Of a DNA stretch of 64,000 bases, positions 34,641 through 56,781 are shown one piece after another; the first letter of the stretch is position 1, and each line of letters starts with the position of its first letter. Below the pieces are notes generated by a model. The model searched no databases, was not told where the DNA came from, and saw nothing but the letters and a program-made list of their open reading frames with translations. This stretch comes from Bidens hawaiensis (Eukaryota; Streptophyta; Magnoliopsida; Asterales; Asteraceae): assembly GCA_021521415.1 (NCBI GenBank), contig JAIQDT010001135.1, positions 239,501-303,500 on the forward strand, given 5' to 3'. A program made the position numbers and the translations under genes.

Positions 34641-35635
34641 TGAAGAAACACTAACCGGACCCCGGGCAGATTACTGGTAACCTGGGGGTTAGATAGATGT
34701 TTCCCACGAGGGGTTAGACCCTTTGAAGATGGTTCTTCTGATAACCTGCAAAACAGACACCGTGAGCTCGTCACTGAGAAGGGGGGGGGGTTCCTCCTTG
34801 TGACCACCCTCCGGCGTGAGAATCAGACTAGATTGCTCTTTAAATATAAAAGTATATTAAGAGATTGCTAGAGCAGATATCAGGTATAATATGATGATAA
34901 TGTGATATGATATGATAAGATAAGATGAGATGGTCATACCATTTGTGGTATTTATAGCCGAAGGTAGGTTTCCAAGGAGGTATGGCCGGCTGCAACAGTG
35001 TTCCTGTTCACCAACAGTAGCCTACGCACGTGCCCTGCTGTTAGTTGGTGGGTAGGTAGCGGCTGATAGCGACCAGGCCTGCTGTATACTATTCCTTTTC
35101 CACCAACTGCCGGCTACGCACGTGGTATGACAGGAGTTGGTGAGTAGGCAGCGGCTAATAGTGACATACAGTGTAGGAGCATGCTGCTCGCCATACTGTT
35201 GTCTATAAGCTGTCGTATCTTTAGTCAGATCTTTTTCCCATGCCTCGTCAGGTACAGTACAGAAGATCTTCCCGTATCGTACGGACTGGCTTATTTGGGC
35301 GGGAGTATTCCCCCTCCCGCCCTTGTGCGGGATTGTTCCCGGCTTCGCTCATTCCTTCAGGTGACACTGAACGATTGAGAGCTAAGTGCCTTGTGCGTGT
35401 AGCCTTGCTGCGCGGGTGGCCTTCCCTAATGGCTTGTATCCGAGGCTGCGGGTACAGGCGGAGTCCTTCACCATTGGGAGGCATTTCCTGCGGGACCAGC
35501 TTGCGTACTGCGCGTAAGGACGTCACGTCTCTGAGCATGGTTGGTCCTGCGGATCCAGTTGGTTTCTGCGCAGACGTCCTTGTTTAAGGTGAGTCTTGCG
35601 GGTCCAACTGGGCTCTGCTGGGACCTACCTCTTCA
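34641..35635 (-). repeat. LTR A of palindromic element
   Basis: 995 bp. On the minus strand it runs from TGAAGAGGTAGG to GTGTTTCTTCA. It shares diagnostic bases with LTR C (CCCGGGCAG, TTAGATAGATG) that differ in LTR B. Confidence 0.9.
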
Positions 35636-35638
35636 AAA

Positions 35639-36635
35639 TGAAGAAACACTAACCGGACCCCGGACAGATTACTGGTAACCTGGGGGTTGGATAGCTGTTT
35701 CCCACGAGGGGTTAGACCCTTTGAAGATGGTTCTTCTGATAACCTGCAAAACAGACACCGTGAGCTCGTCACTGAGAAGGGGGGGGGGGGTTCCTCCTTG
35801 TGACCACCCTCCGGCGTGAGAATCAGACTAGATTGCTCTTTAAATATAAAAGTATATTAAGAGATTGCTAGAGCAGATATCAGGTATAATATGATGATAA
35901 TGTGATATGATATGATAAGATAAGATGAGATGGTCATACCATTTGTGGTATTTATAGCCGAAGGTAGGTTTCCAAGGAGGTATGGCCGGCTGCAACAGTG
36001 TTCCTGTTCACCAACAGTAGCCTACGCACGTGCCCTGCTGGTAGTTGGTGGGTAGGTAGCGGCTGATAGCGACCAGGCCTGCTGTATACTATTCCTTTTC
36101 CACCAACTGCCGGCTACGCACGTGGTATGACAGGAGTTGGTGAGTAGGCAGCGGCTAATAGTGACATACAGTGTAGGAGCATGCTGCTCGCCATACTGTT
36201 GTCTATAAGCTGTCGTATCTTTAGTCAGATCTTTTTCCCATGCCTCGTCAGGTACAGTACAGAAGATCTTCCCGTATCGTACGGACTGGCTTATTTGGGC
36301 GGGAGTATTCCCCCTCCCGCCCTTGTGCGGGATTGTTCCCGGCTTCGCTCATTCCTTCAGGTGACACTGAACGATTGAGAGCTAAGTGCCTTGTGCGTGT
36401 AGCCTTGCTGCGCGGGTGGCCTTCCCTAATGGCTTGTATCCGAGGCTGCGGGTACAGGCGGAGTCCTTCACCATTGGGAGGCATTTCCTGCGGGACCAGC
36501 TTGCGTACTGCGCGTAAGGACGTCACGTCTCTGAGCATGGTTGGTCCTGCGGATCCAGTTGGTTTCTGCGCAGACGTCCTTGTTTAAGGTGAGTCTTGCG
36601 GGTCCAACTGGGCTCTGCTGGGACCTACCTCTTCA
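35639..36635 (-). repeat. LTR B of palindromic element
   Basis: 997 bp in tandem with LTR A, separated by only AAA (35636-35638). It adjoins the polypurine tract at 36636-36649 and is therefore the 3' LTR of the left half. Confidence 0.9.
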
Positions 36636-37004
36636 AGTCCCCCCAGTCCAATGTTCTTCTCATGCGTGTTTAATAAAGTGAGGTGAACTTTTGGACTTAA
36701 GCAAAGGGTTTTGAAAAGGGTTTTTTAAGGTTTTCCCGTGGAAGTCCTTGTCACTTGCAGAAATTCCCGAGTTTCCTGCTTGGTCTTTGGGTATGATGCG
36801 GGTAGGTCTGTAACCTCCTCGCAAGTCAGGAGCGTTGAGTCCCACTTGTGTGGACTCTCCATGAGGTTTTGGTAGTTTTGAACATAGTGATCAATTATGT
36901 TAAAACCACCAATTCCATGCTGAAGCTTCAAACAACGTAGTTCTCGACGTTCCCGCTATGCGGGGATGTTATTTCCGCTTCCGCAAGCATTGCCCAGAAG
37001 ATCC

Positions 37005-37470
37005 TTCTTGGTTTCAATTCCCAGCGGAGCGCTAGGTATGTGAAGGGTTTTGCCTTAACACTGTACCAGCGCTCGTCTTACGGTTACTTTACTTCCAAGG
37101 TATTCCTGGCGTCAATTCCCTGCGGGTGCTAGGTATGTGAAGGGTTTTGCCTTTACACTGTACCCGCACCCGTCTTATAGTTACTTGGTTGCCGAGGAAT
37201 ATTTGGCTTCAATTCCCTGCGGGTGCTAGGCATGTGAAGGGTTTTGCCTTTACACTGTACCCGCATCCGTCTTACGGTTACTTGTTCGCCAAAATTTACT
37301 TGGCTTCAATTCCCTGCGGGTGCTAGGTACGTGAGTGGTTTTGCCTTTACACTGTACCCGCATCCGTCTTACGGTTACTTGTTTGCCAAGGTTTTACTTG
37401 GCTTCAATTCCCTGCGGGTGCTAGGTGCGTGAAGGGTTTTGCCTTTACACTGTACCCGCATCCGTCTTAC
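37005..37470. repeat. 98-bp tandem repeats, left arm
   Basis: About 4.7 units containing TCAATTCCCTGCGGGTGCTA and CTGTACCCGCATCCGTCTTA. The first units are divergent (CCAGCGGAGCGCTAGG). Open frames in it are repeat artefacts. Confidence 0.88.
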
Positions 37471-37580
37471 TGACAACCCGTATTAAGGGTTTGAAGATCT
37501 GCGTGACCGAGCGCAGTCTCCGATCGTGGAAGCGGGAGTTCTTCTACGTTTCTGCCCGCGCCATCCCTATTGCCATGAAG
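37469..37580 (+). pseudogene. 112-bp scrap of the antisense Tat gene at the palindrome centre
   Basis: It matches 44511-44624 with very few changes and encodes the KGLKICVTERSLRSW region of that protein. Its edges join 98-bp repeats on both sides with only one or two shared bases, so the joints look like microhomology junctions. Confidence 0.85.
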
Positions 37581-38076
37581 TAAAATCTTGGCAAACAAGT
37601 AACCGTAAGACGGATGCGGGTACAGTGTAAAGGCAAAACCCTTCACGCACCTAGCACCCGCAGGGAATTGAAGCCAAGTAAAACCTTGGCAAACAAGTAA
37701 CCGTAAGACGGATGCGGGTACAGTGTAAAGGCAAAACCCTTCACGCACCTAGCACCCGCAGGGAATTGAAGCCAAGCAAAACCTTGGCAAACAAGTAACC
37801 GTAAGACGGATGCGGGTACAGTGTAAAGGCAAAACCCTTCACATGCCTAGCACCCGCAGGGAATTGAAGCCAAATATTCCTCGGCAACCAAGTAACTATA
37901 AGACGGGTGCGGGTACAGTGTAAAGGCAAAACCCTTCACATACCTAGCACCCGCAGGGAATTGACGCCAGGAATACCTTGGAAGTAAAGTAACCGTAAGA
38001 CGAGCGCTGGTACAGTGTTAAGGCAAAACCCTTCACATACCTAGCGCTCCGCTGGGAATTGAAACCAAGAAGGATC
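37581..38076. repeat. 98-bp tandem repeats, right arm (inverted)
   Basis: Reverse complement of the 37005-37470 array, about five units, with a slightly different set of unit variants. Confidence 0.88.
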
Positions 38077-38440
38077 TTCTGGGCAATGCTTGCGGAAGCG
38101 GAAATAACATCCCCGCATAGCGGGAACGTCGAGAACTACGTTGTTTGAAGCTCCAGCATGGAATTGGTGGTTTTAACATAATTGATCACTATGTTCAAAA
38201 CTACCAAAACCTCATGGAGAGTCCACACAAGTGGGACTCAACGCTCCTGACTTGCGAGGAGGTTACAGACCTACCCGCATCATACCCAAAGACCAAGCAG
38301 GAAACTCGGGAATTTCTGCAAGTGACAAGGACTTCCGCAGGAAAACCTTAAAAAACCCTTTTCAAAACCCTTTGCTTAAGTCCAAAAGTTCACCTCACTT
38401 TATTAAACACGCATGAGAAGAACATTGGACTGGGGGGACT

Positions 38441-39435
38441 TGAAGAGGTAGGTCCCAGCAGAGCCCAGTTGGACCCGCAAGACTCACCTTAAACAAGGAC
38501 GTCTGCGCAGAAACCAACTGGATCCGCAGGACCAACCATGCTCAGAGACGTGACGTCCTTACGCGCAGTACGCAAGCTGGTCCCGCAGGAAATGCCTCCC
38601 AATGGTGAAGGACTCCGCCTGTACCCGCAGCCTCGGATACAAGCCATTAGGGAAGGCCACCCGCGCAGCAAGGCTACACGCACAAGGCACTTAGCTCTCA
38701 ATCGTTCAGTGTCACCTGAAGGAATGAGCGAAGCCGGGAACAATCCCGCACAAGGGCGGGAGGGGGAATACTCCCGCCCAAATAAGCCAGTCCGTACGAT
38801 ACGGGAAGATCTTCTGTACTGTACCTGACGAGGTATGGGAAAAAGATCTGACTAAAGATACGACAGCTTATAGACAACAGTATGGCGAGCAGCATGCTCC
38901 TACACTGTATGTCACTATTAGCCGCTGCCTACTCACCAACTCCTGTCATACCACGTGCGTAGCCGGCAGTTGGTGGAAAAGGAATAGTATACAGCAGGCC
39001 TGGTCGCTATCAGCCGCTACCTACCCACCAACTACCAGCAGGGCACGTGCGTAGGCTACTGTTGGTGAACAGGAACACTGTTGCAGCCGGCCATACCTCC
39101 TTGGAAACCTACCTTCGGCTATAAATACCACAAATGGTATGACCATCTCATCTTATCTTATCATATCATATCACATTATCATCATATTATACCTGATATC
39201 TGCTCTAGCAATCTCTTAATATACTTTTATATTTAAAGAGCAATCTAGTCTGATTCTCACGCCGGAGGGTGGTCACAAGGAGGAACCCCCCCCCTTTCTC
39301 AGTGACGAGCTCACGGTGTCTGTTTTGCAGGTTATCAGAAGAACCATCTTCAAAGGGTCTAACCCCTCGTGGGAAACATCTATCTAACCCCCAGGTTACC
39401 AGTAATCTGCCCGGGGTCCGGTTAGTGTTTCTTCA
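38441..39435 (+). repeat. LTR C of palindromic element
   Basis: 995 bp in plus orientation, directly after GGACTGGGGGGACT (38427-38440). It has TATAAATA at 39120-39127 and two CACGTG motifs upstream (38952-38957 and 39054-39059). Confidence 0.9.
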
Positions 39436-40660: not shown

Positions 40661-41675
40661 TTACCTCAGGTAGAAATGACTCTGAGAAACTGTGGCAACT
40701 GAGCTAGAATCACCTCCATCGCGGTTATTTGGTAAGCTTTGTGTAATGTCGTTAAGTTCTATGGTTAATTCGTTAACAAAAGGGGTATTAGAAGGGGCGG
40801 GTAACGGGTCCTCGTTTGTTGCTAACATTTTTAGTGTTGCTGACATGGATGGTCTTAAAGATGGAACTTCTTGAGTGCAAAGAAGTGCTATATGTACCAC
40901 TTTAATAATATCTTTTTGGAAATTTGTGTTCGGGTAAATGTGCATCATTAAATTTGAGTCAAGTATGTCCACCAAGGTGCCTTGGTTGAAATGATTCCAT
41001 GCCTATTAATCAACAAATAAATAAATTTTAAAGATGCTCACATTTGCTCAATCACAAAAGAATTGCAGTTATATGTGTGTGAAGATGGACGTGTTGAGTA
41101 ACTAGTTTATCATATAATACTTTAAATAAAATGATGTGAAAGATTTTATGTATAAATACTACACTTCACGCGACTTTCAACCCGGTCCCCTATGCTCTGT
41201 CCCAAAATAATGGTCTACTAGACTGGAAAAAAGAAAAACAGTTGTCGTGTGAGGTGAAGAGTATATACTTACAGTAGACAATAAGTTGTCTGTATATTCG
41301 GTGATTCTGCTTCGATTGCTTTCCATTCCGGTAACCATCTCCAAAATTAAAATACCAAAGCTATAAACATCTGCCTTTTCGGTTAATTGACCGTGGATTA
41401 GATATTCCGGAGCCATATATCCACTGGTATAATCCAAATAATAAAAATAAAAATAAAAGTCGTAGACCATATAAATGAACTTTTTTTATATCCAAAATAA
41501 CTTGAACGAAAGCTAATTAACCAAGAAGGTAGTTACAGTGTTCCTGCAATGGCGGTGCTAATGTGGCTTTTGTCATCTTGAAAAGACCGTGCCAACCCAT
41601 AATCAGCTATTTTGGGACGAAACCTATGGTCTAATAAGATATTAGCAGCTTTAATATCTCTGTGAACAATCCATC

Positions 41676-42662
41676 TGAAGAAACACTAACCGGACCCCGG
41701 ACAGATTACTGGTAACCTGGGGTTAGATAGATGTTTCCCACGAGGGGTTAGAACCTTGGAAGATGGTTCTTCTGATAACCTGCAAAACAGACACCGTGAG
41801 CTCGTCACTGAGAAGGGGGGGTTCCTCCTTGTGACAACCCTCCGGCGTGAGAATCAGACTAGATTGCTCTTTAAATATAAAAGTATATTAAGAGATTGCT
41901 AGAGCAGATATCAGGTATAATATGATGATAATGTGATAAGATATGATAGGATGAGATGGTCATACCATTTGTGGTATTTATAGCCGAAGGTAGGTTTCCA
42001 AGGAGGTATGGACGGCTGCAACAGTGTTCCTGTTCCACCAACAGTAGCCTACGCACGTGCCCTGCTGGTAGTTGGTGGGTAGGTAGCGGCTGATAGCGAC
42101 CAGGCCTGCTGTATACTATTCCTTTTCTACCAACTGCCGGCTACGCACGTGGTATGACAATAGTTGGTGAGTAGGCAGCGGCTAATAGTGACATACAGTG
42201 TAGGAGCATGCTGCTCGCCATACTGTTGTCCATAAGCTGTCGTATCTTTAGTCAGATCTTTTTCCCATACCTCGTCAGGTACAGTACAGAAGATCTTCCC
42301 GTATCGTACGGACTGGCTTATTTGGGCGGGAGTATTCCCCCTCCCGCCCTTATGCGGGATTGTTCCCGGCTTCGCTCATTCCTTCAGGTGACACTGAATG
42401 ATTGAGAGCTAAGTGCCTTGTGCGTGTAGCCTTGCTGCGCGGGTGGCCTTCCCTAATGGCTTGTATCCGAGGCTGCGGGGACAGGCGGAGTCCTTCACCA
42501 TTGGGAGGCATTTCCTGCGGGACCAGCTTGCGTACTGCGGGTAAGGACGTCACGTCTCTGAGCATGGTTGGTCCTGCGGATCTAGTTGGTTTCTGCGCAG
42601 ACGTCCCTGTTTAAGGTGAGTCTTGCGGGTCCAACTGGGCTCTGCTGGGACCTACCTCTTCA
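41676..42662 (-). repeat. 3' LTR of the Tat-like element
   Basis: 987 bp, same family as LTRs A, B and C of the palindromic element. On the minus strand it starts TGAAGAGGTAGG directly after the polypurine tract. Confidence 0.92.
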
Positions 42663-42676
42663 AGTCCCCCCAGTCC
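42663..42676 (-). promoter_or_regulatory. Polypurine tract of the Tat-like element
   Basis: The minus strand reads GGACTGGGGGGACT immediately before the 3' LTR. The same tract lies beside LTR B and LTR C. Confidence 0.75.
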
Positions 42677-43044
42677 AATGTTCTTCTCATGCGTGTTTAA
42701 TAAAGTGAGGTGAACTTTTGGACTTAAGCAAAGGGTTTTGAAAAGGGTTTTTTAAGGTTTTCCATGGGGATTCTTCCCGCGGAAGTCCTTGTCACTTGCA
42801 GAAATTCCCGAGTTTCCTGCTTGGTCTTTGGGTATGATGCGGGTAGGTCTGTAACCTCCTCGCAAGTCAGGAGCGTTGAGTCCCCCCTTGTGTAGACTCC
42901 ATGAGGTTTTGGTAGTTTTGGACATAGTGATCAATTATGTTAAAACCACCAATTCCATCCTGGAGCTTCAAACAACGTAGTTCTCGACATTCCCGCTATG
43001 CGGGGATGTTATTTCCGTTTCCGCAAGCATTGCCCAGAAGATCC

Positions 43045-43630
43045 TTCTTGGTTTCAATTCCCAGCGGAGCGCTAGGTATGTGAAGGGTTTTGCCTTAACA
43101 CTGTACCAGCGCTCGTCTTACGGTTACTTTACTTCCAAGGTATTCCTGGCGTCAATTCCCTGCGGGTGCTAGGTATGTGAAGGGTTTTGCCTTTACACTG
43201 TACCCGCACCCGTCTTATAGTTACTTGGTTGCCGAGGAATATTTGGCTTCAATTCCCTGCGGGTGCTAGGTATGTGAAGGGTTTTGCCTTTACACTGTAC
43301 CCGCATCCGTCTTACGGTTACTTGTTTGCCAAGGTTTTGCTTGGCTTCAATTCCCTGCGGGTGCTAGGTGCGTGAAGGGTTTTGCCTTTACACTGTACCC
43401 GCATCCGTCTTACGGTTACTTGTTTGCCAAGGTTTTACTTGGCTTCAATTCCCTGCGGGTGCTAGGTGCGTGAAGGGTTTTGCCTTTACACTGTACCCGC
43501 ATCCGTCTTACGGTTACTTGTTTGCCAAGATTTTACTTGGCTTCAATTCCCTGCGGGTGCTAGGTGCGTGAAGGGTTTTGCCTTTACACTGTACCCGCAT
43601 CCGTCTTACGGTTACTTGTTTTGCCAAGCT
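43045..43630. repeat. 98-bp tandem repeats in the 3' region of the Tat-like element
   Basis: Six units with TCAATTCC starts at 43053, 43152, 43249, 43347, 43445 and 43543; the last four are spaced exactly 98 bp. The first units are divergent and the last ones nearly identical, as expected for recent local expansion. Confidence 0.9.
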
Positions 43631-43903
43631 AAGGGGTTATTTTCCCGCTTACTTTTTAATATTTTTAAATTTTGAATTTTAAAATTTGAAAGGTTGGTGG
43701 AAAGATAGGAACAGTTCAAACCTCTGAAATGTCGTGCGACGGTTTCTCCTGACTGTGTCAGGACGTGCAGGAAGTTATGGTGACGTGACATTATATGGTC
43801 ATTCCAGACGCTTTTTCAGGCGCGTGGGCGCGATTTTTCGGGTGCGTGGCCGCGAAATTACTGGCACACGTCCTTTCAACAGCTGTTTCCAGCTTGCTTT
43901 TTG

Positions 43904-43987
43904 CCACGTGTCATAGTTTCATTGCACCTTCGATTTCTCTCTCCTCCGCATTAAATTCACCGCATTAATTGCGATTACTATATAAAG
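43904..43987 (+). promoter_or_regulatory. Probable promoter of the antisense gene: G-box and TATA box
   Basis: A G-box CCACGTGTCA lies at 43904-43913 and a TATA box TATATAAAG at 43979-43987, about 120 bp before the first ATG (44109). The pyrimidine-rich stretch CACCCTTCTCTTCTTCTTCT just downstream is typical of a plant 5' leader. The promoter lies inside the retrotransposon and points against it. Confidence 0.6.
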
Positions 43988-44108
43988 GGGGAGAGGGTTC
44001 TTTGTAATCCACACTTTCACCCTTCTCTTCTTCTTCTTGGCGATTTCCGACAAATACTCCCCTTTTCAGGCAAGCATTTTCCCGAAATCGTTTTCTTCTC
44101 TCTGCAAT

Positions 44109-47100
44109 ATGTCTTCCCATGATGCTGAAGCTGTAGCCGACGATAGGAGTACTGCTGGCGAGTGCCAGTGTGCTCTACCTGTCGATCAGTACCAGTATGT
44201 CGTCAGGAAATTCATGCTTGAGTCTCTTGAGCCTGAGTTTCCTGAACCCCACCAGACTGTGTACGATGCCCCTAGTGGCAAGATCGGGGTATATGCTGCA
44301 TTCTTTGTTTATGGGAACCTTAGGTTCCCATTGACAAAGTTTGTGTACCGTGTCTTGGAGAGGCACGGTGTGCACCTGACCGAGGCGCATCCGATGGCGA
44401 TTGCCAAGATCCGGCACTTCGAATGGGTGTGCCGGATTCTGGGTATTGAGCCCTATGTGGACCGCCTGATGACCTTCTATACTTGGAGGTGCATCCAGGG
44501 GTGGTACACCCTGACAACCCGTATTAAGGGTTTGAAGATCTGCGTGACCGAGCGCAGTCTCCGATCGTGGAAGCGGGAGTTCTTCTACATTTCTGCCCGC
44601 GCCATCCCCATTGCCATGAAGTTTAAGAACGGACAAGCGCTTCCGAGCCTTCACGCTTCCAGCTACCAGGAGGCGGAATTGTTCGCGAAGATATCCCGGG
44701 TCCAATCTCCGGTTTACCGGTTTGCGGAGTCCGGGATGGTGATGCTGGGGATGAGCCGGGTATGGAAGGATGCGTCCCGGTTTCCCATCCTTCTCGAATA
44801 CGGTTTGAACTCTATTCCTTATGGTATGTCTTGTCTTTCTTGCTGATTTGAGTTTGTCTTCTAACTGTTTTTTTTCTCAGAGGGGAACGATTTGGAGTCG
44901 CTCCTGCACCCGCGGGAAGCTGACGGTCCCGTGCGGGTGGGCACTCGTGCTCTAGATGAGAACGAGTTGCCCATCCTGGAGCAAACGGCGGATCGGTTTG
45001 TGGAGGTCTATCCGCTGGGCCACGAGATCCTGAGCCAACGGCGGCCAGGTAAGGCGATACTCTATCCTCAACCCCTCAATGCTGTACCCGCTGCTGGAAT
45101 TCCTGACACCCTGTCTTCTGAGGAATCCGCAGATGGTCCTCCGCTGGTGCGGAAGAGGAAGGCTGCCGGCGGGAAAGGGAAGGAGAAGGTGGCCTCCACA
45201 GCTGATCCGGTGCTCCTATCTGACACCGAGTCAGGTAGTGAAGAGGTGGCGGGGAACCCCGGTGGTGAGAAGACCACTGTTCCGGAGGCTACGACTGTTA
45301 CCTCCGGAGAACCATTGACGACGACGGTGACCGGTATCAAGAGACCGGCTCCATCGGGCTCGTCCCCGCCCGTCCGTACGTTCAGGCTCAAGAAAACCCG
45401 TAAGTACAAACATCCTTGTTTTTGTAGATTTATCATACTTCATAAATTTATTGTTAACACTTATCTTCTTGTGCAGGCGTGGATGTTGACGCATTCCAGG
45501 GTGGAGCGCAGAGGAGTACCTCTCCGCCGATGACGGTAGGCTCGGTCAGCCTACCTGAGGCGACGACCCAGGCGCCTGCGCCTGCTTCCGCTGGATCAGT
45601 TGCTCAGTCACTTGAGCCGACTGTTCCAGCCGAGATGACGTCACCGCCAGTGGTAAGTGCGATTTTTACAGCATCTTTCACCGAGCCGGCGGTTACGATT
45701 GCTGCGGATTCTGCGGCAGCGACTGCGGCGGCTGCCACCATGCCCCCGCCACCGGCACCGACGGCCGGCCCATCAGGTACGCATGGGAGTACTCGCCAAT
45801 CTTTGCCACCTTCCCATCTGCCTGACCTTTTGGATGGGTTTCCTTTGGGTTCAGGTGATGGGTTCGGCGGCTATCGGCCTGTTATAGACCCTACAGGTGC
45901 GTAGGGTTCCTTTGCCCTTTCTCACTTATTTTTTATCATCTTTTTCCTAACTGCTTTTTTTGTTTTTTGCAGTGTCGGATTCCAATGACGTGTATGTTCC
46001 GCGATGGAACATACGCCGAGGAACAACCCTTCGTACCCCTGTGGAGTGCGTGGAATGGGCTCGCCACGCTGCTCCCCATGGTGCGTTGAGGGAAGCCATG
46101 GCTAGCTACCAGGAGGGTAGGCTAACCAATGAGCTTCGGGTTCTCCAGGCCCGGATGCAGCCGCGCGTCGAGCTGCTTTGTCGTGAAAACGACAAGTTAA
46201 AAGCAGCTCGCGCCAAGGAAGTATCCCAAGCGCGGGCTCTTCGGGAGGAGAACCAAAAGTTGGCCGCAGCTGCTGCGGAGAAGGAGAAGGCCTTCAAGGC
46301 CCTCGAGGTTGAGGTTCAAGCGCGACTCGAGGCCCGCTCCATGGCTGCCCAAGCTGTTAACGAACAGCTTCGACTGGCTAAGGAGACTGCGAGGAACGCA
46401 ACCGAGAGGGCCACCAAGGCTGAAGCCGTTGCTGAGCCTTTATGCGTGGAGAACGAGGAGCTCAAGGCTAAATTGGAGGCTCTCCAACGTGCTCATGATG
46501 CCTTGGCGATGGAAGATGCCAAGAAGCTCCAAGAGATCCTGGACCAGAGGGGCGTGCTTGACCACACCGAGCGGAAGCTTAAGGGCGTTGAAGAGGCTGC
46601 TGCGAAGGAAGTGCTACTTGCCAACCTCAACAAAAGCGAAGCTGAACGCGCCCGCACCCAAGCTCAGGCCGCCCTCCAAGAAGCTCTGGTTGCCAAGGAA
46701 TGGCTTCTTCGAGAAGCGTTGCCTCAGGTATGTTTAGCTTTACGTCTTCACGCTTTCCTTTGTACATAGAAAAGGTGACTTGACACTTGTATATTTTCCT
46801 TTGTAGGTTGTGCATCGGGTCTTCTCAGAGACATCCTACGACGATGCTATGAGCGCAGCCCTCAACGCTTCTCACGAGGATGGGGAACGGGCCGGCTTCC
46901 TGCTTGGTCTAGGGTTCGTTGAGAAAGGCTTCCCGCCTTCCAACTTCCCTTTGTACAATGTTGATACTGAAGCCATATATGACCAAGCAGTAAATCAATA
47001 CGCCGCCTTCCCGCATCCAGTGGTGGAGAAGGTGAACCAAGTAGCTGCTGCTGATGATGGGTTAGCTATCCTAAAAGCCTTCCTCGAACCGCCCCGTTCT

Positions 47101-47142
47101 TCTGATGGAGTGGGTCCAAGTGGAAGCGGCCCTGAAGCTTGA
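44109..47142 (+). CDS. Antisense five-exon gene of the Tat-like element (Transposase_28-like, coiled coil)
   Basis: Exons 44109-44823, 44881-45399, 45477-45896, 45973-46727 and 46807-47142 have GT-AG borders and phases that join into 914 residues without a stop. The N-terminal 240 residues resemble the plant family annotated as putative gypsy-type transposon (Transposase_28, PF04195), with FVYRVLERHGVHL and RIKGLKICVTERSLRSW. The middle is low-complexity, rich in Ser, Pro, Ala, Thr and basic RKRKAAGGKGKEK. Exon 4 is a long predicted coiled coil (RENDKLKAARAKEVSQ, LREENQKLAAAAAEKEK). The C-terminus is globular (AGFLLGLGFVEKGFPP). Tat elements are known to carry such extra ORFs, some antisense; their function is unknown. 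The family match is from memory of its style; introns are inferred from sequence only. Confidence 0.75.
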
Positions 47143-47369
47143 TCCTGAAGATCCCTTCCCGTTGCTAGGATAGTCTTGTACAGATGTATTTATTTTCTTT
47201 TCGTAGGCGGGTAGTTACCCGGCCATTCTTGTAATAATCCGTTTGTGAAATATTAATCTTTTTGCGCATAAGATTGTTATTTCCTTCTTTGGGTTTCTTG
47301 CTTTATAAACTTATGACTTGCATACTTAGTTTAAATTAGCAATTTTTCAAGTGTAGAATAAGTTAACCT

Positions 47370-47950
47370 GTTGAACGTGGTTGATAATGGGTTAAAGTTT
47401 TGCTTCCTCTTTCATGATTGTGCGGGTAGAACCGTCACTTGCACTTAGTAAGATGGCTAAACTTTAACCTTCATCTGACCTGCGTGTAGGTTTTCCTCAT
47501 CTTTTGAGGATAAGTGAACCTTTGAACGTGGTTGATAATGGGTGTGAAGTTTTGCTTCCTCTTTCGTGATTGTGCGGGTAGAACCGTCACTTGCACTTAG
47601 TAGGATGGCAAAACTTTACCCATATCTGACCTGCGTGTAGGTTTTCCTCATCCTTTGAGGATAAGTTAACCTTTGAACGTGGTTGATAATAGGTGTGAAG
47701 TTTTGCTTCCTCTTTCGTGATTGTGCGGGTAGGACCGTCACTTGCACTTAGTTTGGCAAAACTTTACCCATATCTGACCTGCGTGTAGGTTTTCCTCATC
47801 CTTTTAAGAATTTTGTTTTGAACCGTTCGACGCGCGGTTGTCAATAGGTAGTGTTCAGTTTCCTTTCATGATTCATGCGGATAGACCGGCACTTTCATTT
47901 AATGGGATAATTGAACTCTTCCCCTTCAACTGACCTGCGTGAAGGTTTGT
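47370..47950. repeat. 151-bp tandem repeats downstream of the antisense gene
   Basis: Units start TGAACGTGGTTGATAAT at 47372, 47523 and 47674, a period of 151 bp, with a divergent fourth unit near 47820. Shared blocks include TTGTGCGGGTAGAACCGTCA and GACCTGCGTGTAGG. Confidence 0.85.
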
Positions 47951-48310
47951 CACGTTATTGGGTTTGTGCGGGTAGGATCGCCTTCCCACGCAACGACTTC
48001 ACGTAATGTGAATGCCGTTACCAGTGTTCAGAAAAGTATAAATGTAAAATCATCAGCTTCGATGTTCTAAAGAGAATCATTTCCATTAGAAGTGGCTCTT
48101 GGCCTTTTCTTTACAAATTGGAATTGATTTACATGCAAACTGTGTAAATAAGCTCCCTTCCATATTGTTGGGATGGGAGTGCCATCGAGCCGATACGCAC
48201 CTGGCTCGGGATCTCGTTCTTTACGCAGCATGTAGTCTCGACATTGAAGCTGGAATTTTTATTCATGTTTTCCTCAGCTGGGGTTCTACACGCACCCGCC
48301 TGTTCAGCCT

Positions 48311-49765
48311 TTATTGCGCCACGAGGTGCGCGAGCGTCCCATCTCTGACAAATGCTTCGACCATGTCTTTTACGTCTATGCATTCTTCAGTGTTGTGGCC
48401 TTTTGTCTTGTGAAAGTCACAGTATTTGCTCCGATCAGCATCGTGACGATGTCGGATTATTGGAGGCTTTGGCCACGGGAGCTCTTCAGTGGCGAATATC
48501 TCAGTGACGCTTTTGGTGAGTGGCGTCCATCTGGAGTTTCGGTGCGGCTGTACATTATCCTTTCCGCCCAATCGATGTTGCAAGCCGGATGAGGTGTCAA
48601 AGTTTACCCTTGACTGCCAAATGCCTAGCTTCCGCTTTTTATTTAATCGGGCGGTGAGGACGTTGTCTTCTCTCGTCTTCTGAGTGTAGAGGTTTGTGCT
48701 CTGGGGGAGATCTCTACCCAGTTGCTTCTCCGTTTCCGCATAGCGTTTTGCTGCTGTCATGATGGCATCCCATGTGGATGGCATGCCATCTTTACCCGTT
48801 AGGGTGCGGATGAGCTCTGGGTCATGCGCGCCCTGGATGAAGGCAGCGCGAACAAGATCTTCGCTGATATTGCCCAAACTTAGCTTCTTTGAGTTGAAGC
48901 GAGTGATGAAGTTTGGCAGAGATTCATCTTCTTCTCGTATGCATTTGAGGATTGTCCATTGCTCCTCGGTATACTTCCGTTGCTGGCTGAAGTGTTGGCT
49001 AAACTTCTGCTGGAAGTCTGCCCAGTCGTAGATGTGGTTGACCGGTAGACGATCAAACCAAGCTCTAGCAGCCCCAACAAGCGTCATTTGGAACATGTAG
49101 CACCACGTGGGTTCCGTCCAATTGCTGACGGTTGCCCCCGCTATGAACCTGTTCAAATGATCGTCTGGATCAGATATACCGTCATATGTGCCTATGTTAG
49201 GCATTTGTTTGGCACTCTTTGGGGCGATTGCTTCCGCAATGTCCCTTGCAAACTTGGACGTTCCTGCATTTGCAACGTTTGGTCTGAACGTTTTGGAGAA
49301 GTCTCGTGGACTTCCACCTGTGCTTTTTGGTTTGAAGGCTTGTCCAAAATGCCTTTTCGGTTGGGATTCCATTTCCTTACGCTTCCCTTTTGCCCTATGG
49401 CGAGGGTTCGCGTCGGAGTCGGATTCCTCCGAGTCATCCTCCCAGTATTCGAATTCGTCGGCCTGTTGTACGGAACGCAAGCGTTCGTTCAACTCGGCCT
49501 GGAATTCCTTTTGTCGTGCCTCCGCCCATGCCTTGACTTCATCGAGAGTTTGGCGGGGGAGTCTTCGTTTCTCAACCTGGGTATCAGTGGATCCCAGTAG
49601 GCGATCATTTACTGCACTTGCCCCAGCATGAGTAACTGGGGTAGTGTTCGTAAAATTTACTTCACTTGCCCCGGCTTGGGTAACCGGGGTAGTGTTTGTA
49701 AAAACTGTGTTACCGGTATTCCCCCCAGTAGCTGGGGTTGTGGTTACCGGAATTTCTCTAACCAT
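48311..49765 (-). CDS. Gag protein of the Tat-like element
   Basis: A 484-residue frame starting 66 bp inside the 5' LTR, close to the primer site. The N-terminus has two copies of a TNTTPVT-AGAS repeat and then a charged coiled stretch (LDEVKAWAEARQKEFQAELN). The core carries the Retrotrans_gag signature of the Tat lineage (IGTYDGISDPDDHLNRFIAG, MTLVGAARAWFDRLP, ITRFNSKKL, AFIQGAHDPEL). The C-terminus has the C/H cluster YCDFHKTKGHNTEEC. It stops at LAHLVAQ, where coding-competent relatives continue to protease; no pol follows in any frame. Gag would form the particle that packages the RNA. No internal stop, so it may be expressed. Confidence 0.88.
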   Translation of the reverse strand: MVREIPVTTTPATGGNTGNTVFTNTTPVTQAGASEVNFTNTTPVTHAGASAVNDRLLGSTDTQVEKRRLPRQTLDEVKAWAEARQKEFQAELNERLRSVQQADEFEYWEDDSEESDSDANPRHRAKGKRKEMESQPKRHFGQAFKPKSTGGSPRDFSKTFRPNVANAGTSKFARDIAEAIAPKSAKQMPNIGTYDGISDPDDHLNRFIAGATVSNWTEPTWCYMFQMTLVGAARAWFDRLPVNHIYDWADFQQKFSQHFSQQRKYTEEQWTILKCIREEDESLPNFITRFNSKKLSLGNISEDLVRAAFIQGAHDPELIRTLTGKDGMPSTWDAIMTAAKRYAETEKQLGRDLPQSTNLYTQKTREDNVLTARLNKKRKLGIWQSRVNFDTSSGLQHRLGGKDNVQPHRNSRWTPLTKSVTEIFATEELPWPKPPIIRHRHDADRSKYCDFHKTKGHNTEECIDVKDMVEAFVRDGTLAHLVAQ

Positions 49766-49818
49766 CTTTGTAGAAGTTTGAAAAAACTGGAGAAAAATGT
49801 AGTTCTAGCTTTATGCAC

Positions 49819-49829
49819 GGATGGCGCCA
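49819..49829 (-). promoter_or_regulatory. Primer-binding site of the Tat-like element
   Basis: The minus strand next to the 5' LTR end (...TTTCTTCA) reads T then TGGCGCCATCC. TGGCGCC pairs with tRNAs ending GGCGCCA, such as tRNA-Asp; the following bases do not clearly extend that match. The same 11 bases occur at 61275 in the element at 60181. Confidence 0.65.
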
Positions 49830-49830
49830 A

Positions 49831-50818
49831 TGAAGAAACACTAACCGGACCCCGGACAGATTACTGGTAACCTGGGGGTTAGATAGATGTTTCCCACGAG
49901 GGGTTAGACCCTTGGAAGATGGTTCTTCTGATAACCTGCAAAACAGACACCGTGAGCTCGTCACTGAGAAGGGGGGGTTCCTCCTTGTGACCACCCTCCG
50001 GCGTGAGAATCAGACTAGATTGCTCTTTAAATATAAAAGTATATTAAGAGATTGCTAGAGCAGATATCAGGTATAATATGATGATAATGTGATAAGATAT
50101 GATAGGATGAGATGGTCATACCATTTGTGGTATTTATAGCCGAAGGTAGGTTTCCAAGGAGGTATGGCCGGCTGCAACAGTGTTCCTGTTCCACCAACAG
50201 TAGCCTACGCACGTGCCCTGCTGGTAGTTGGTGGGTAGGTAGCGGCTGATTGCGACCAGGCCTGCTGTATACTATTCCTTTTCTACCAACTGCCGGCTAC
50301 GCACGTGGTATGACAATAGTTGGTGAGTAGGCGGCGGCTAATAGTGACATACAGTGTAGGAGCATGCTGCTCGCCATACTGTTGTCCATAAGCTGTCGTA
50401 TCTTTAGTCAGATCTTTTTCCCATACCTCGTCAGGTACAGTACAGAAGATCTTCCCGTATCGTACGGACTGGCTTATTTGGGCGGGAGTATTCCCCCTCC
50501 CGCCCTTATGCGGGATTGTTCCCGGCTTCGCTCATTCCTTCAGGTGACACTGAATGATTGAGAGCTAAGTGCCTTGTGCGTGTAGCCTTGCTGCGCGGGT
50601 GGCCTTCCCTAATGGCTTGTATCCGAGGCTGCGGGGACAGGCGGAGTCCTTCACCATTGGGAGGCATTTCCTGCGGGACCAGCTTGCGTACTGCGGGTAA
50701 GGACGTCACGTCTCTGAGCATGGTTGGTCCTGCGGATCCAGTTGGTTTCTGCGCAGACGTCCCTGTTTAAGGTGAGTCTTGCGGGTCCAACTGGGCTCTG
50801 CTGGGACCTACCTCTTCA
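49831..50818 (-). repeat. 5' LTR of the Tat-like element
   Basis: 988 bp, nearly identical to 41676-42662. It contains TATAAATA on the minus strand and two upstream CACGTG motifs. Confidence 0.92.
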
Positions 50819-51168
50819 CCATCGTTTGGTATTCTCATAAAGGTAGACGAGGCTTTCTCCTATACCAATAATAATCTCAACTCTCTTCTCCCACCCTATT
50901 TCTCTTCCTAGTAATTCATCTGACAAAATAATAATTGTTACCTTTCAGATTAGACATGCTAATTGGTCAAATAGGTAAAAACAACAAAAAGGTCCCTTGT
51001 AGGAATATGAGATAAGATAAATTTATCAAATGGTTCGAATCAGTTGCTTTTGAATCATTGATGGGTCGGGTTGAGCAATAGGTCATATGGGTTCGGACTC
51101 ATACAGGTCATTTTAATTATGGGTTGCACTGATATTTTTTTTTATTTGGAAATGATTAAAATTACGTC

Positions 51169-51204
<36 letters not shown>

Positions 51205-53952
51205 CAACTAATGAATAGATAAAACAATTACGCAAGTTGTTTGCATCAGAAATGGAGGCTGGGCAACTTTCAACCTATTAGAGGCATTACCCTCTCAGTT
51301 GCGTTTTTTAACATGACCTGAATGAGATAAAACATAACAAAAATCGACCAACTTTATAAATAAACGAATTGAAATCGAACTTACCAAAAATGTAGAAGTC
51401 AAGGCTCTTGTTGGGCATGTATTCATATATAAGAATAGTTTTGGATCCTAAACAACTGCATCCTAATAACCTAAGAAGATTTGGATGCTCAACACTGCTA
51501 GATAATTTAACTTCATTAAAGAAATCTGCTACTTTAAATTTATAGCTGATAAAAAGTCTCTTTACAGCTATTTCTCGTTCATCATTAAGAGCCCCTTAAG
51601 AGAAATTTCATAGACTCATAGTTCACGTTAGCTGTCTTCACATGCTTAGTTATGAATGGGTAGATATAGTTTTATATAAATGGGATTAATAAAAGTCAAC
51701 ACAACTAAAAAGAATTACAACATGCCAACCCAACACAATTAGACTTGTATAAAAAACTCAAACCTTGTACACGGTCCCGAATCCTCCTTGTCCGATCTTA
51801 TTAGAATCATCCCAGTGTTCGGTAGCATTTTCAACAGTGGAGTATTTGAAGTACAAGCCACTATCATTAAGAATCTTTACTAGTTTGCGAGTATCATAAG
51901 AACCTAGAAATTATAAGCAGTCAGTAGTTTGCTTCATAGATTTCGCAAAACATGTTTTTTTAATCAAATATTGTGGGTATACCTCTTCTTTTGTGTTGAA
52001 TATGTTTGTGTTTCTTGATATATAAGATGATCATCAAAGCAACTGTAATTACCACCACAGTAGTGGCGACTGAAGCCGCGATTGTTACTATCCTCGCTGC
52101 CAACAACGATATCAATTTCTTCATCGCGTAAATAAGATTTTTATTGGAAAGTTTTTTCTTACCCGTGCTTATGTTACTTATTCTGTTTATTATCCTTTTG
52201 ATGACATTGTTTATAACTTAGGTAGGGATGTAAAGTGACGGAACTTAAACATTTATATTGAGGGGTCAAAAATTTTAAAAATAAATATTAAGTTCTTACA
52301 CATAAAACAACCAACTATTTTACCTATTAAAGACCATAAATTAAAAAAAAATAATAATAACCAATTCTTACATATATAGTATATCTACATATACGTTACA
52401 CATTTTTAAAAAGTAAATTTAAAATTGCATTTAGTAAAGTCAGATAGGTTATAAAAATGATTCACATAATAAACATAAAAAATAATTTAAAAGAAAGAAG
52501 CATTTAAAGAAGGAAGTAGAACACTAGTACCTATATATTGTGAAAAACAAAAGTACATCAGTTTTTCTTTTTAAAATGACTAAACGACGTCCATTTTAAT
52601 AATAAAATTACAGAATGTTAGATATTTTAATTCAAATTAAGGTTACACAGCTTATCATCTTCTTCCCTCATATTATGAACGCACCATGCGAGAGCTTCGT
52701 TGGAAAAAAAGTTAAGAAAAAAGTTATGGCTATTTCTAAGCCCAAAAACCAAATGGGCCACAACCCCTACTCGCCCCTAAAAAGTTCTATCCTTGGCGGA
52801 TGTTCATCGTCCGCTTAGGCTGATTATATATTTGGTGGGATTTTAGGTGGAACCGTTAACTACGAACCGACCAAGTTGTCTAGTGATTAAAAAGACTTTA
52901 TAAATTTTCAAATCTATAATATATATATATATAAACGAAACCTTTAAAAGCTCTCTAGTTGCTTCTTAAATTCTCTTAAGCCACCAGATTACTTTATTTG
53001 TAAATAAATGTTTATCATGCATTTGATCTGAATTCATAGATATGGGTCTCACTAAACCCAGAGAGCTCTTAAACGGGTAAATTAAAAATTAATCTTTCCA
53101 AATATTTGATATGAAAATCCTATAAAATAGAGATATACTAAAAATTAATATCTAATTTTTTATAAGATATTATTTATAATTAAGAAACAATTTTATAGTA
53201 AAAAAATAAGCGAGTCATGGGTCACCAAACCCAGATAGCTTTTAAACGGGTTGTAACATATCATTTATTTATGAAACTCTTTCATCATCAAACCCTAAGT
53301 ATATTATTAATTTCCTTACAATAAAGAAAATTAAAATCCAAAAAATAAATATTAAAAAACAAAAAATATAAAACAACCCTCGTAATATGGGGGATAAAAC
53401 CTAGTAAATAAATAAATAGTAGTTACCTTTATTGCTAGATCGTCCTTTGACCGGTAAAGGATTGAGAAAATTGGTATCCGAATACCTCATGAAACACCCC
53501 ATGTTCAACACGCGACCCTCAGACCATGGTGAACATTTCTTTAACGACATCGATGCGTTCTCCAAGCACGCCCTACAAGAACTCGGGCTCAAAGTCTTCC
53601 GACATTCCACCAACACATAAACCGAATCATTAGTACCCGACACCAACAATTCTACCCTACCAAAGTAATCATTATTTCTCAACGCACCCGATACAGCATT
53701 GACCTCTCAACCAGTGACGGATTTAGAATTTTTTTTTATCTGGTTCGCTATTTTAAGATGCTCTAAATATATAAGAACGCGTATAAAAAAATTGGGTCGG
53801 GTTGACGATTCGGATTGGTTTAACGGTTCGGGTCAAGAAAGATTAATCATATAATAAAAAACGATATAATAACTAAAAAACATCATCATTAGAAACTAAA
53901 AAAACACGGGACTTAAAAACGATAATCTTTCGAAATAAAAAAAAAACTAACC

Positions 53953-54515
53953 TTATAGTTGTTCTTTACGAGTTTTCATCTTTTGAAAGCGTTGCATTAC
54001 ATCTTCGATCGAAACTTGTAGTAAAAACTCTCTTTCAATGTAGCAAATGCAAGAATCATTCATGTACCCGTCACCCATCCTATTACGTAGTTCCGTCTTC
54101 ACATGCTTCATTGAAGAAAAACTTCTTTCAACACTAGCCGTTGCAACCGGTAGAACTAGTGACAATTTTATTAAACGATAAACCAACGGATAATCAATGT
54201 GTTTTCTTGTTTCCACCATCATTTTTGCAAGATCACTTACCCCTTTAAGATTGTCAAACCTCGAATCTTCTTTCACATTAGCAATGTAGTGGCCAAGTTA
54301 GCAAAATCTCGTTGCGGGAAATTATGCCCAATAGGTTGACATGGCCCTCTTAGCAAATATGTTCTTCTAATTTCATCTTTTTGATTAGGATGATATGATG
54401 AAATCGGCTTTCGATCTGAAGGATCCCATGGAAGATCATCCAATTCGACTCTTGCCAGATTATTACTACTAGATGGTGAAGGGTCTCGTGGCCTTCTCGA
54501 TAAAAAACGGTCCAT
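53953..54515 (-). pseudogene. hAT transposase fragments, copy 1
   Basis: The first frame, 54515-54273, encodes an N-terminal part with a TTF-type zinc-finger start (LDDLPWDPSDRKPISSYHPN, RGPCQP). The second, 54276-53953, is the C-terminal hAT dimerisation region (YRLIKLSLVLPVATASVERS, RNRMGD). The central catalytic and RNase H-like part is missing and the two join out of frame, so it is an internal-deletion derivative that cannot encode active transposase. Confidence 0.85.
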
Positions 54516-54988
54516 AATCTATCAAATTTAAGTTCTGTAAAAGCAAAAATAAAATTCAAAGCCCTAAAAAACTAACATCTTTTTTGAACACTCAATCATC
54601 AAAAGTCTCATTCTAACGAACTACAAAAGGGGCGGGATTCGGGAACGCACCTGAACGCGGAGGCCGGACTGCCGGAGGGTATCGGACTATCGGTGAGACG
54701 GCGACGGCGAGTTTCTGGTGTGACTGTGTGACTGTGAGTGTCGGAGTCAGTGACGGATTTAGAATTTTTTTTTATCTGGTTCGCTATTTTAAGATGCTCT
54801 AAATATATAAGAACGCGTATAAAAAAATTGGGTCGGGTTGACGATTCGGATTGGTTTAACGGTTCGGGTCAAGAAAGATTAATCATATAATAAAAAACGA
54901 TATAATAACTAAAAAACATCATCATTAGAAACTAAAAAAACACGGGACTTAAAAACGATAATCTTTCGAAATAAAAAAAAAACTAACC

Positions 54989-55551
54989 TTATAGTTGTTC
55001 TTTACGAGTTTTCATCTTTTGAAAGCGTTGCATTACATCTTCGATCGAAACTTGTAGTAAAAACTCTCTTTCAATGTAGCAAATGCAAGAATCATTCATG
55101 TACCCGTCACCCATCCTATTACGTAGTTCCGTCTTCACATGCTTCATTGAAGAAAAACTTCTTTCAACACTAGCCGTTGCAACCGGTAGAACTAGTGACA
55201 ATTTTATTAAACGATAAACCAACGGATAATCAATGTGTTTTCTTGTTTCCACCATCATTTTTGCAAGATCACTTACCCCTTTAAGATTGTCAAACCTCGA
55301 ATCTTCTTTCACATTAGCAATGTAGTGGCCAAGTTAGCAAAATCTCGTTGCGGGAAATTATGCCCAATAGGTTGACATGGCCCTCTTAGCAAATATGTTC
55401 TTCTAATTTCATCTTTTTGATTAGGATGATATGATGAAATCGGCTTTCGATCTGAAGGATCCCATGGAAGATCATCCAATTCGACTCTTGCCAGATTATT
55501 ACTACTAGATGGTGAAGGGTCTCGTGGCCTTCTCGATAAAAAACGGTCCAT
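54989..55551 (-). pseudogene. hAT transposase fragments, copy 2
   Basis: Identical by translation to copy 1 (frames 55551-55309 and 55312-54989), at an offset of exactly 1036 bp. Confidence 0.85.
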
Positions 55552-56781
55552 AATCTATCAAATTTAAGTTCTGTAAAAGCAAAAATAAAATTCAAAGCCC
55601 TAAAAAACTAACATCTTTTTTGAACACTCAATCATCAAAAGTCTCATTCTAACGAACTACAAAAGGGGCGGGATTCGGGAACGCACCTGAACGCGGAGGC
55701 CGGACTGCCGGAGGGTATCGGACTATCGGTGAGACGGCGACGGCGAGTTTCTGGTGTGACTGTGTGACTCCGACTCGGAGTCGTCACCGTCGGCGAACGC
55801 GGAGGCCGGAGGATGTGTATTGTGGATTTAGGGTTTTTAATTTGTGGGAGCTACAGATGGAATTGGAGATTTGGAGGTGGTCGGCGTCTGTCTGTGTGAC
55901 TGTGAGGTGGTCGGCGTCTCGGCGAGTTTCTTTCTCTACGGTAGAGGTGGACAGACAGACAGTGAGGGAAATTGGGGGTGTTTAGGGTTTTTAAGAAAGG
56001 TTTATAAGGGTAATAGAGCACAAAAGAAAAAGGCAAAAAAAAATAAGGTTGTGTCTTGTGTGAGACTCGAACCCGGGTCTGCACTCAAACACAATGCACG
56101 CCTTGCCACTAAGCCAGTATATGTTTTATGTATATATTTGAAACGAATTATATATATGGTTCAGCCCAGAAACACATGGTTCGCTAAAAAAGTCGCTATT
56201 AAATGCTCCACTACGGTTCGAAAAACACCTGGTTCGCTTGACCCGGTACTCACATGAATAAATCCGTCCCTGCTCTCAACGCACCCGATACAGCATTGAC
56301 CACTGCCTGACTTGTTGACTCTTGAAACAACACACCTTTTTTTGTTGTATTCCCGCAAACCATATCATCTTTCGGGTTCGCATACTCCTCGAAGAAGTTA
56401 TAATGTTGGAGGCGCATAAAGCACCCGTCAAGATAAATCCACCCCCCCGCTTTGGGGGTAGCTTGCGGGAAAAGAAGTACGTATTTGGGCATAACATATG
56501 ATGCAATCTTGTGAAGAGAGATCACCGTAGCATTCCGCTAGAGCGTAGATTGAGTTGGGGCCAGTGCCCACAGTTGCTGTCGCGTTATGTGAAGTTTGAA
56601 TTTGGCTCGTAATCATATTCATTGTACGAATAAAATTCTTGAGGAATGTTGTTTGGTCAGTCTCTGAGGTGTTATCACACTGCATTTTGATTATTTCGGG
56701 TCTGGCGTCGCCGTTTGATTTGGATACTTGTATGATCAAAACAACGATGAAAATTATAGCTGTATGTGTTGATTTCTTCAT

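Follow-up and report, generated by a model that had tools for sequence, protein, structure and literature searches.

Why would a retrotransposon without a polymerase gene of its own carry an intact, multi-exon gene on the opposite strand? The question is raised by a locus of Bidens hawaiensis (contig JAIQDT010001135.1, positions 239,501 to 303,500 of the forward strand), of which the whole 64,000-nucleotide stretch analyzed is here called the window. A long terminal repeat (LTR) element occupies window positions 41676-50818, and its sole long sense open reading frame (ORF) is gag; opposite to its direction lies a gene whose five exons, spanning 44109-47142 on the plus strand, join into 2,745 nt, or 914 codons plus a stop. 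The present study suggests, with a probability that we put at roughly 0.6, that we are dealing with an accessory gene in antisense, belonging to a semi-autonomous, gag-only family of Tat/Retand type, which would supply its own nuclear factor and borrow pol.

Results

Splice Sites and Reading Frame Across Family Copies

The four introns of the antisense gene are all of the GT-AG type, and 30 GT/AG combinations leave the frame open in the window copy, so that a single copy is insufficient to fix the five-exon model. The length of a single frame was likewise rejected as proof: the longest plus-strand frame in 44000-47300 has 281 codons, inside the range of a first-order Markov control (500 sequences; maximum 338 codons, mean 132), and ORF length alone is therefore weak evidence. 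The main case for a spliced, selected gene comes instead from the retention of splice sites and from the ratio of nonsynonymous to synonymous substitution (dN/dS, or omega) among copies. Thirty full-length copies were aligned, namely that of the window and the 29 next best of 40 scored among 9,457 candidates in the 3.47 Gb of genome searched, a selection by high score that skews the set to young, intact copies. In the 29 copies compared with that of the window, splice dinucleotides were altered in 2 of 464 cells, both at the donor of intron 2, and 630 of 5,945 intron-interior cells (10.6%) were altered by substitution or gap. All eight dinucleotides were intact in 28 of the 30 copies, the whole frame in 15, and both in 13.

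Exons are the quietest class for both divergence and insertions or deletions (indels) across the 30 copies. Divergence from the window copy was 2.2% in exons, 4.7, 7.9, 7.3, and 3.8% in introns 1 to 4, and 4.4% upstream (with L017, which is rearranged there, excluded), 9.1% in the leader, and 2.8% downstream. Distinct indel events numbered 13 in 2,745 exon bases, 43 in 289 intron bases, 15 in 371 upstream bases, and 9 in 195 downstream bases; per kilobase this amounts to 4.7 in exons, 149 in introns (88.6-197 in each), 40 upstream, 148 in the leader, and 46 downstream, a depletion in exons of ~9-10 fold relative to the plainer flanks and ~30 fold relative to introns. Both of the widespread exon indels (in 27 and 13 copies) are of 3 nt, 8 of the 10 single-copy exon indels break the frame, and no frame-breaking exon change was found in more than 2 of the 30 copies. 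Columns with shared variants make up 5.2% of exon positions and 35% of intron 2. Upstream of the gene, TATATAA is preserved in 29 of the 30 copies, adjoining the strongly variable leader. The leader (44001-44108) is of two strongly different types over near-identical coding regions (L009-L038), which we read as a sign of recombination between subfamilies.

Selection on the Coding Frame

Variants present in at least 2 of the 30 copies comprise 49 nonsynonymous (N) and 78 synonymous (S) changes and 1 stop, giving an omega of 0.33, and none of 300 context-matched placements gave a value as low; singleton variants (212 N, 143 S, 12 stops) gave 0.76. Pairwise dN/dS falls with rising dS class, from 0.52 (21 pairs) through 0.36 (135), 0.31 (228), and 0.28 (49) to 0.22 (2). 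Parsimony on the tree placed 55 N, 84 S, and 0 stops on internal branches and 250, 231, and 14, respectively, on terminal branches, the neutral expectation being ~2.31 N per S. When the shared variants were read in wrong frames, omega was 2.94 and 1.62 in the sense shifts and 1.91 and 1.97 in antisense. Within the gene, omega was 0.09 in the C-terminal exon, 0.22 in exon 1, 0.22 in the coiled coil, 0.40 in residues 239-411, and 0.51 in the Ala/Pro/Thr linker, the last not significant (P 0.095). To judge from these ratios, the pattern is the one expected of a gene that is selected while its element replicates and decays after insertion. The four introns are very probably real, the protein was very probably under selection during the spread of the element, and we hold it to be very likely indeed that the locus contains a spliced, selected gene. 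The original prediction, made from the letters of the window, had claimed an intact 914-residue frame with consensus splice sites, had seen selection in its intactness, and had named neutral decay across copies among the outcomes that would speak against it; the near-invariant splice dinucleotides, together with the low omega of shared variants and its fall with divergence, bear these claims out.

The Host Element and Its Family

The features of the antisense gene and of its host element are collected in Table 1. The region between gag and the antisense gene is noncoding and includes the 151-bp repeat, and the gag frame stops where the corresponding frame of a neighboring Tat-type element, described below, continues toward pol. 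At a substitution rate of 1.3e-8 per site per year, the identity of the two LTRs places the insertion at about 0.3 million years ago. The gene had been predicted to run antisense in a young element coding only for gag, and the LTR identity of 99.29%, the target-site duplication (TSD) CCATC, and the coding content agree with this. Gag appears to be constrained as well: five copies compared with that of the window showed 32 N, 34 S, and 1 stop, for an omega of ~0.27 by plain site counts on non-independent copies.

Table 1. Coordinates of the antisense gene and its host element in the window
Feature	Position	Strand	Remarks
TSD CCATC, left copy	41671..41675		
3' LTR of host element	41676..42662	-	99.29% identical to 49831-50818; element on - strand
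Polypurine tract (PPT) region	42663..42682	-	Element sense ...GGACTGGGGGGACT
98-bp tandem repeat, 5.9 copies	43047..43628		Between 3' LTR and antisense-gene promoter
TATA-type TATATAAA box, antisense gene	43979..43986	+	130 bp 5' of ATG
Exon 1	44109..44823	+	Residues 1-238 and one base; Transposase_28-like domain
Intron 1	44824..44880	+	57 nt, phase 1; donor-like motif at equivalent site and phase in other TRP28 families
Exon 2	44881..45399	+	Linker with RKRK resembling a nuclear localization signal (NLS)
Intron 2	45400..45476	+	77 nt, phase 1; AT donor in 2/30 copies
Exon 3	45477..45896	+	Low-complexity Ala/Pro/Thr linker; least constrained part
Intron 3	45897..45972	+	76 nt, phase 1
Exon 4	45973..46727	+	VYVPRWNI motif; long charged helix / predicted coiled coil
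Intron 4	46728..46806	+	79 nt, phase 0
Exon 5	46807..47142	+	C-terminal domain; most constrained part
151-bp tandem repeat, 3 copies	47358..47804		Between antisense gene and gag
gag	48311..49804	-	497-codon stop-to-stop frame; Retrotrans_gag PF03732
Primer binding site (PBS)	49819..49830	-	Element sense TTGGCGCCATCC
5' LTR	49831..50818	-	
TSD CCATC, right copy	50819..50823		

The family is abundant. A 35-mer from exon 4 that does not vary among the 30 copies has 4,349 exact matches in the genome (2,149 + 2,200), and its reversed control has 0. On the gag side of six copies, five contain full-length gag flanked by 5' LTR sequence, of which L043 has only a part, the frame being open in L041, L042, and L044 and broken in L040 and L043, and most of gag is missing from L039. 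Among 59 antisense-gene starts, which were chosen by eye from the copy and exon-1 listings and lie mostly on contigs in the gag listing, the gag end is 4.0-4.9 kb away in 52, and the addition of C4375 and C357, in which it lies at the usual distance, brings the count to 54 of 59; those left outside are C3340, C867, C9926, C2121, and C3868. Gag is 13.5-14.4 kb from three starts, C3868 being the third besides L048 and L049. The latter two had been candidates for pol-bearing members and were rejected, because in each the antisense gene is interrupted by a nested Ty3/gypsy element of a different kind; the nested polyprotein of L048 shows a single RNase H region and lacks an RVT_3 match, in contrast to the pol of the neighboring Tat-type element. 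The two nested insertion points lie ~0.5 kb apart in gene coordinates.

No gag frame longer than 577 aa was found among the best 150 of 26,214 gag candidates, of which 15 exceed 500 aa, and stops occur in 2 of these 150 and in 5 of the best 150 of 24,900 exon-1 candidates. Likewise, the copies sampled from the best-match listings included no pol-bearing member of the family, although a rare one could still exist. On this sampling, gag without reverse transcriptase (RT) or integrase appears to be a fixed structure of the family, and we regard it as very likely that the family is semi-autonomous, carrying gag and the antisense gene. Two unusual arrangements involve the same family. Three copies of gag plus the antisense gene, spaced 8,478-8,479 bp apart at ~12-35 kb of contig G000:C4356, resemble a tandem array of the element. 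In the window itself, a near-palindromic insertion at 34641-39435, with arms 99.0% identical and TSD TGTTC on both sides, has the order LTR, a few extra bases, LTR, PPT, 3' internal repeats, exon 1 fragment, inverted copy, and LTR; it holds 112 bp of exon 1 of the antisense gene (37470-37581), its flanks are unrelated, and the insertion terminates on both sides in one and the same LTR end. Its structure suggests a snap-back reverse transcript that became integrated, more than a fold-back created by the assembly.

A Neighboring Element with pol and Other Relatives

An element with pol (L047) lies ~9.4 kb to the right of the host element, at 60181-72867 in extended window coordinates, with LTRs 98.1% identical and TSD ATAAG. 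Its pol has matches to RT, RT_RNaseH, RVT_3, and rve; a second RNase H is the mark of Tat elements, and it is through this domain that we take the neighbor to be Tat-type. It carries a homologous antisense gene, split by stops into exon-like frames, from which it appears that the antisense gene is not peculiar to pol-less elements. The first 10 and last 9 LTR bases and the 12-nt PBS are identical between the neighbor and the gag-only family, and the PPT agrees at 17 of 20 positions; these matches make the neighbor a candidate supplier of pol. The gag proteins are 40% and 35% identical over 105 and 235 residues. Our provisional placement of the family in Tat/Retand is by likeness of gag, by the antisense TRP28-type ORF, which is located between the coding region and the 3' LTR, and by LTR, TSD, PBS, and PPT.

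Exon 1 is homologous to eight genomic stretches that pass the PF04195 cut-off (tblastn, E ~1e-12 to 1e-24). In the neighbor, in L003/L004, and in L007/L008, a phase-1 donor-like motif lies 46 nt past a conserved Trp, and in the window the corresponding distance is 61 nt, also in phase 1; since L003/L004 and L007/L008 are near-copies, the comparison is one with three further families instead of five. A second donor-like motif lies nearby in L003 and L004. The same scan gave no such motif in L001 and no comparable match in L002, L005, or L006. Because the motif recurs at a matching place and phase, intron 1 is probably older than the compared TRP28 families, and the sharing of intron positions, whose absence the original prediction had listed as a possible refutation, is thereby seen for this intron. 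A common intron 3 is not claimed, for the neighbor has an acceptor near the same motif in a different phase. The neighbor, L005, L007, and L008 share the VY..W motif at the start of exon 4, and other TRP28-type proteins show weak similarity to the C-terminal domain (two-sequence E 0.05 to 8e-6). An 84-nt in-frame GTAAGG...GCAG segment of exon 2 (45049-45132) could be an optional intron; it lies close to the site where the antisense gene of the neighbor apparently has an intron.

The Predicted Protein

The N terminus had been described as Transposase_28-like. A search against PF04195 placed a match at residues 66-125, scoring 26.0 bits with exon 1 as the query and 23.0 bits with the full-length protein, both slightly below the curated cut-off of 26.2 bits, so that the likeness was found where it had been proposed, at a score short of formal assignment. 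The 207 residues at 596-802 include 3 Pro and 3 Gly and show a heptad-like periodicity that was matched in 14 of 1,000 shuffles; by composition and periodicity, a long coiled coil is predicted here. The NLS-like RKRK stands at residue 329, and KKRK- or KRK-type motifs were seen by eye in relatives. The C-terminal domain of exon 5 had no Pfam match at E 0.1, and the sole match of exon 1 in a sequence search of solved structures (E 0.99) is meaningless. A protein-database search with the 914 residues returned one match, an unnamed Helianthus protein of like make-up with 24% identity, which itself has no Pfam match; the same search gave no match with residues 24-238 and one with a related TRP28 exon.

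Discussion

A Proposed Self-Supplied Factor and a Possibly Borrowed pol

In the reading that we prefer, the host would transcribe the antisense gene from the gene's own TATA promoter and then splice the transcript, and the protein would enter the nucleus by means of its NLS-like RKRK and multimerize via the coiled coil. RT and integrase would be borrowed from a pol-bearing Tat element with matching PBS, LTR ends, and PPT, and the element would provide Gag and the antisense protein itself, each preferring the RNA or DNA of its source element. Pol has been discarded while gag and the antisense gene have been kept, and the simplest reading is therefore that pol can be borrowed and the other two cannot. 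The introns would survive in the element because its genomic RNA carries them reverse-complemented and hence unspliced before reverse transcription; splicing directionality is the established basis for intron tolerance in an antisense gene. As for its action, the protein may be associated with DNA or chromatin, working on the transcription of its own element, on the preintegration complex or particle, or on integration. To a nuclear role of this kind, suggested by the motifs of the protein, we give slightly less than even odds, and a self-preferring action of Gag and the antisense protein is put forward more tentatively still. The helper or regulatory role that had been proposed for the protein is possible in these terms. 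More doubtful is the wider proposal that an ancient intron-bearing gene of Tat/Retand elements persists only by facing antisense and that its product recognizes the DNA, RNA, or particles of its own family.

If this reading is true, elements with gag and an antisense gene would reveal which functions in retrotransposition are self-acting and which are shared, and a family of thousands that keeps these two genes would amount to a natural deletion experiment on the needs of an LTR element. To the question of whether TRP28 ORFs are working genes, the genome offers a partial answer, in that introns drift while splice sites and exons are held. Surveys of single-frame ORFs would fragment such spliced genes.

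Several observations weigh against this reading or soften the evidence for it. The frame is broken in half of the 30 copies, and only 4 of the 13 distinct exon indels are multiples of three, the other 9 being frame-breaking, 8 of them in single copies. The composition of introns and leader may favor indels, inflating the contrast with exons, and the contrast in shared variants is uneven, with only 7.6-10.5% of columns in introns 1, 3, and 4 and 8.2% downstream. Terminal branches, with 1.08 N per S against the 2.31 expected, and singletons, with an omega of 0.76, also fall below neutrality, so that the sample may be biased or the branches may hold changes that predate insertion; sampling bias or recombination may contribute to the low omega. 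Since copies are mosaic, with two leader types, recombining donors could have been where some of the selection took place. On the opposite strand, the mirror frame has an omega of 0.35, which is low because its third positions are shared with the antisense gene, and this frame contains 18 stops in the window copy. The AlphaFold models are of low confidence and uninformative (predicted local distance difference test 33 for exon 1 and 51 for exon 5). Outside its ends, the LTR of the neighbor is dissimilar to that of the gag-only family, and it may be that every Tat element here shares the PBS, PPT, and LTR ends, so that the neighbor is a candidate partner only. Finally, the argument for self-preference presupposes that any freely shared protein would be lost.

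Alternative Explanations

That last presupposition is where the gene as a public good enters: the protein would serve all Tat elements in trans, and elements with gag plus the antisense gene would live in mutualism with pol elements. The PBS, LTR ends, and PPT held in common with a pol-bearing Tat-type element are in keeping with this, as is the precedent of RLG_Quinta and RLG_Cereba in wheat, as far as the account available to us describes it (PMC11302176). A parasite lineage would, however, be expected to lose the gene except where the supply of partners is limiting for both, and here the gene has been kept; we consider a public good rather unlikely, if the least so of the alternatives. Somewhat less probable, in our estimate, is a passenger, a gene selected in a pol-bearing ancestor or in recombining donors and not needed by the pol-less copies. 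The mosaic nature of the copies, with two leader haplotypes and variable upstream divergence, would suit a passenger, and so would the homologous antisense gene of the pol-bearing neighbor. Yet constraint is also visible in the variants that the compared copies share or that lie on internal branches, both leader types are represented among pol-less copies (L042, from L029, and L043, from L036, versus L040, L041, and L044), and the best-match samples taken contained no pol-bearing member.

Two further explanations dispense with a selected protein of the element. The conserved entity might be an antisense RNA, either a precursor of small interfering RNA or an antisense regulator; roles as antisense or double-stranded RNA have indeed been proposed for such regions, according to the part of the review at hand (PMC7264820), but an RNA alone does not predict the constraint by codon position (49 N:78 S) or the stop-free internal branches, the near-invariant splice dinucleotides also speak against it, and we regard it as very improbable. 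The least probable of all is that a host gene was captured and transduced as a passenger. A multi-exon structure with consensus introns does resemble a host gene, but the neighboring Tat-type element and further stretches of the genome contain homologs, with the donor-like motif in matching place and phase, the 914 residues have a single protein match, to the Helianthus protein of like make-up, and similarity to TRP28 is not known outside transposable elements in the text seen of PMC11963269.

Relation to Known Systems

Antisense TRP28 ORFs are typical of Retand elements, and their function has been left open (Vicient 2025, PMC11963269, as far as its text was available to us); in recently active Retand elements they occur in all but two of 63 clusters, or 97%, and no similarity outside transposable elements is given as known (PMC11963269, same portion). 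An older survey found the Transposase_28 domain in 23% of Retand elements (PMC6317226, in the part available). The ORFs of the Retand survey agree with the present gene in being antisense, near the 3' LTR, and adjacent to tandem repeats in a long 3' region. The survey differs in that it used ORF Finder and single frames, and the word "intron" is absent from it (PMC11963269), whereas five exons and measured selection are reported here; because its elements were mined by RT, gag-only elements were excluded, to go by the same text. Gene23 of maize Grande (Gomez-Orte 2013, via the portion of PMC7264820 at hand) is likewise an antisense gene of the 3' internal region with its own promoter and a nuclear protein, but Grande has pol, since it served as an RT query in the available account of PMC11963269. 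RLG_Quinta/RLG_Cereba and the semi-autonomous RLG_Sabrina also involve a nonautonomous, GAG-encoding element whose PBS, LTR termini, and PPT are common with a pol-bearing partner; these are wheat elements (Quinta being centromeric), and the accessible part of their description mentions no antisense spliced gene (PMC11302176). Ogre is a plant LTR retrotransposon with an intron, but that intron lies in the sense gag-pol and is spliced from a subset of transcripts, by the available part of PMC6317226, whereas those described here are antisense and invisible to the genomic RNA. HBZ of human T-cell leukemia virus type 1, an additional antisense retroelement gene with a nuclear protein as cited in the text seen of PMC11963269, offers an analogy only.

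A review of 2020, in the part available, calls for the study of antisense and spliced transcripts (PMC7264820). In the literature searched, in so far as its text was accessible, no report of introns in antisense TRP28 genes was found, and Gomez-Orte 2013 and Steinbauerova 2011 may bear on the point. As far as our searches show, three aspects are apparently new: the multi-intron structure backed by a comparison of copies, the probably old intron 1 common with other families, and the keeping of gag and the antisense gene in a family where pol was not observed.

Other Features of the Window

Two further repeats lie outside the host element. At 53712-54733 and 54748-55769 there are 1,022-bp tandem copies, 100% identical, with an ORF that resembles the C terminus of a transposase and is presumably hAT-like. 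Direct repeats at 1-1377 and 5871-7247, 99.4% identical and ~5.9 kb apart, enclose a minus-strand ORF that is gag-like by eye together with short tandem units, and they probably bound another LTR element.

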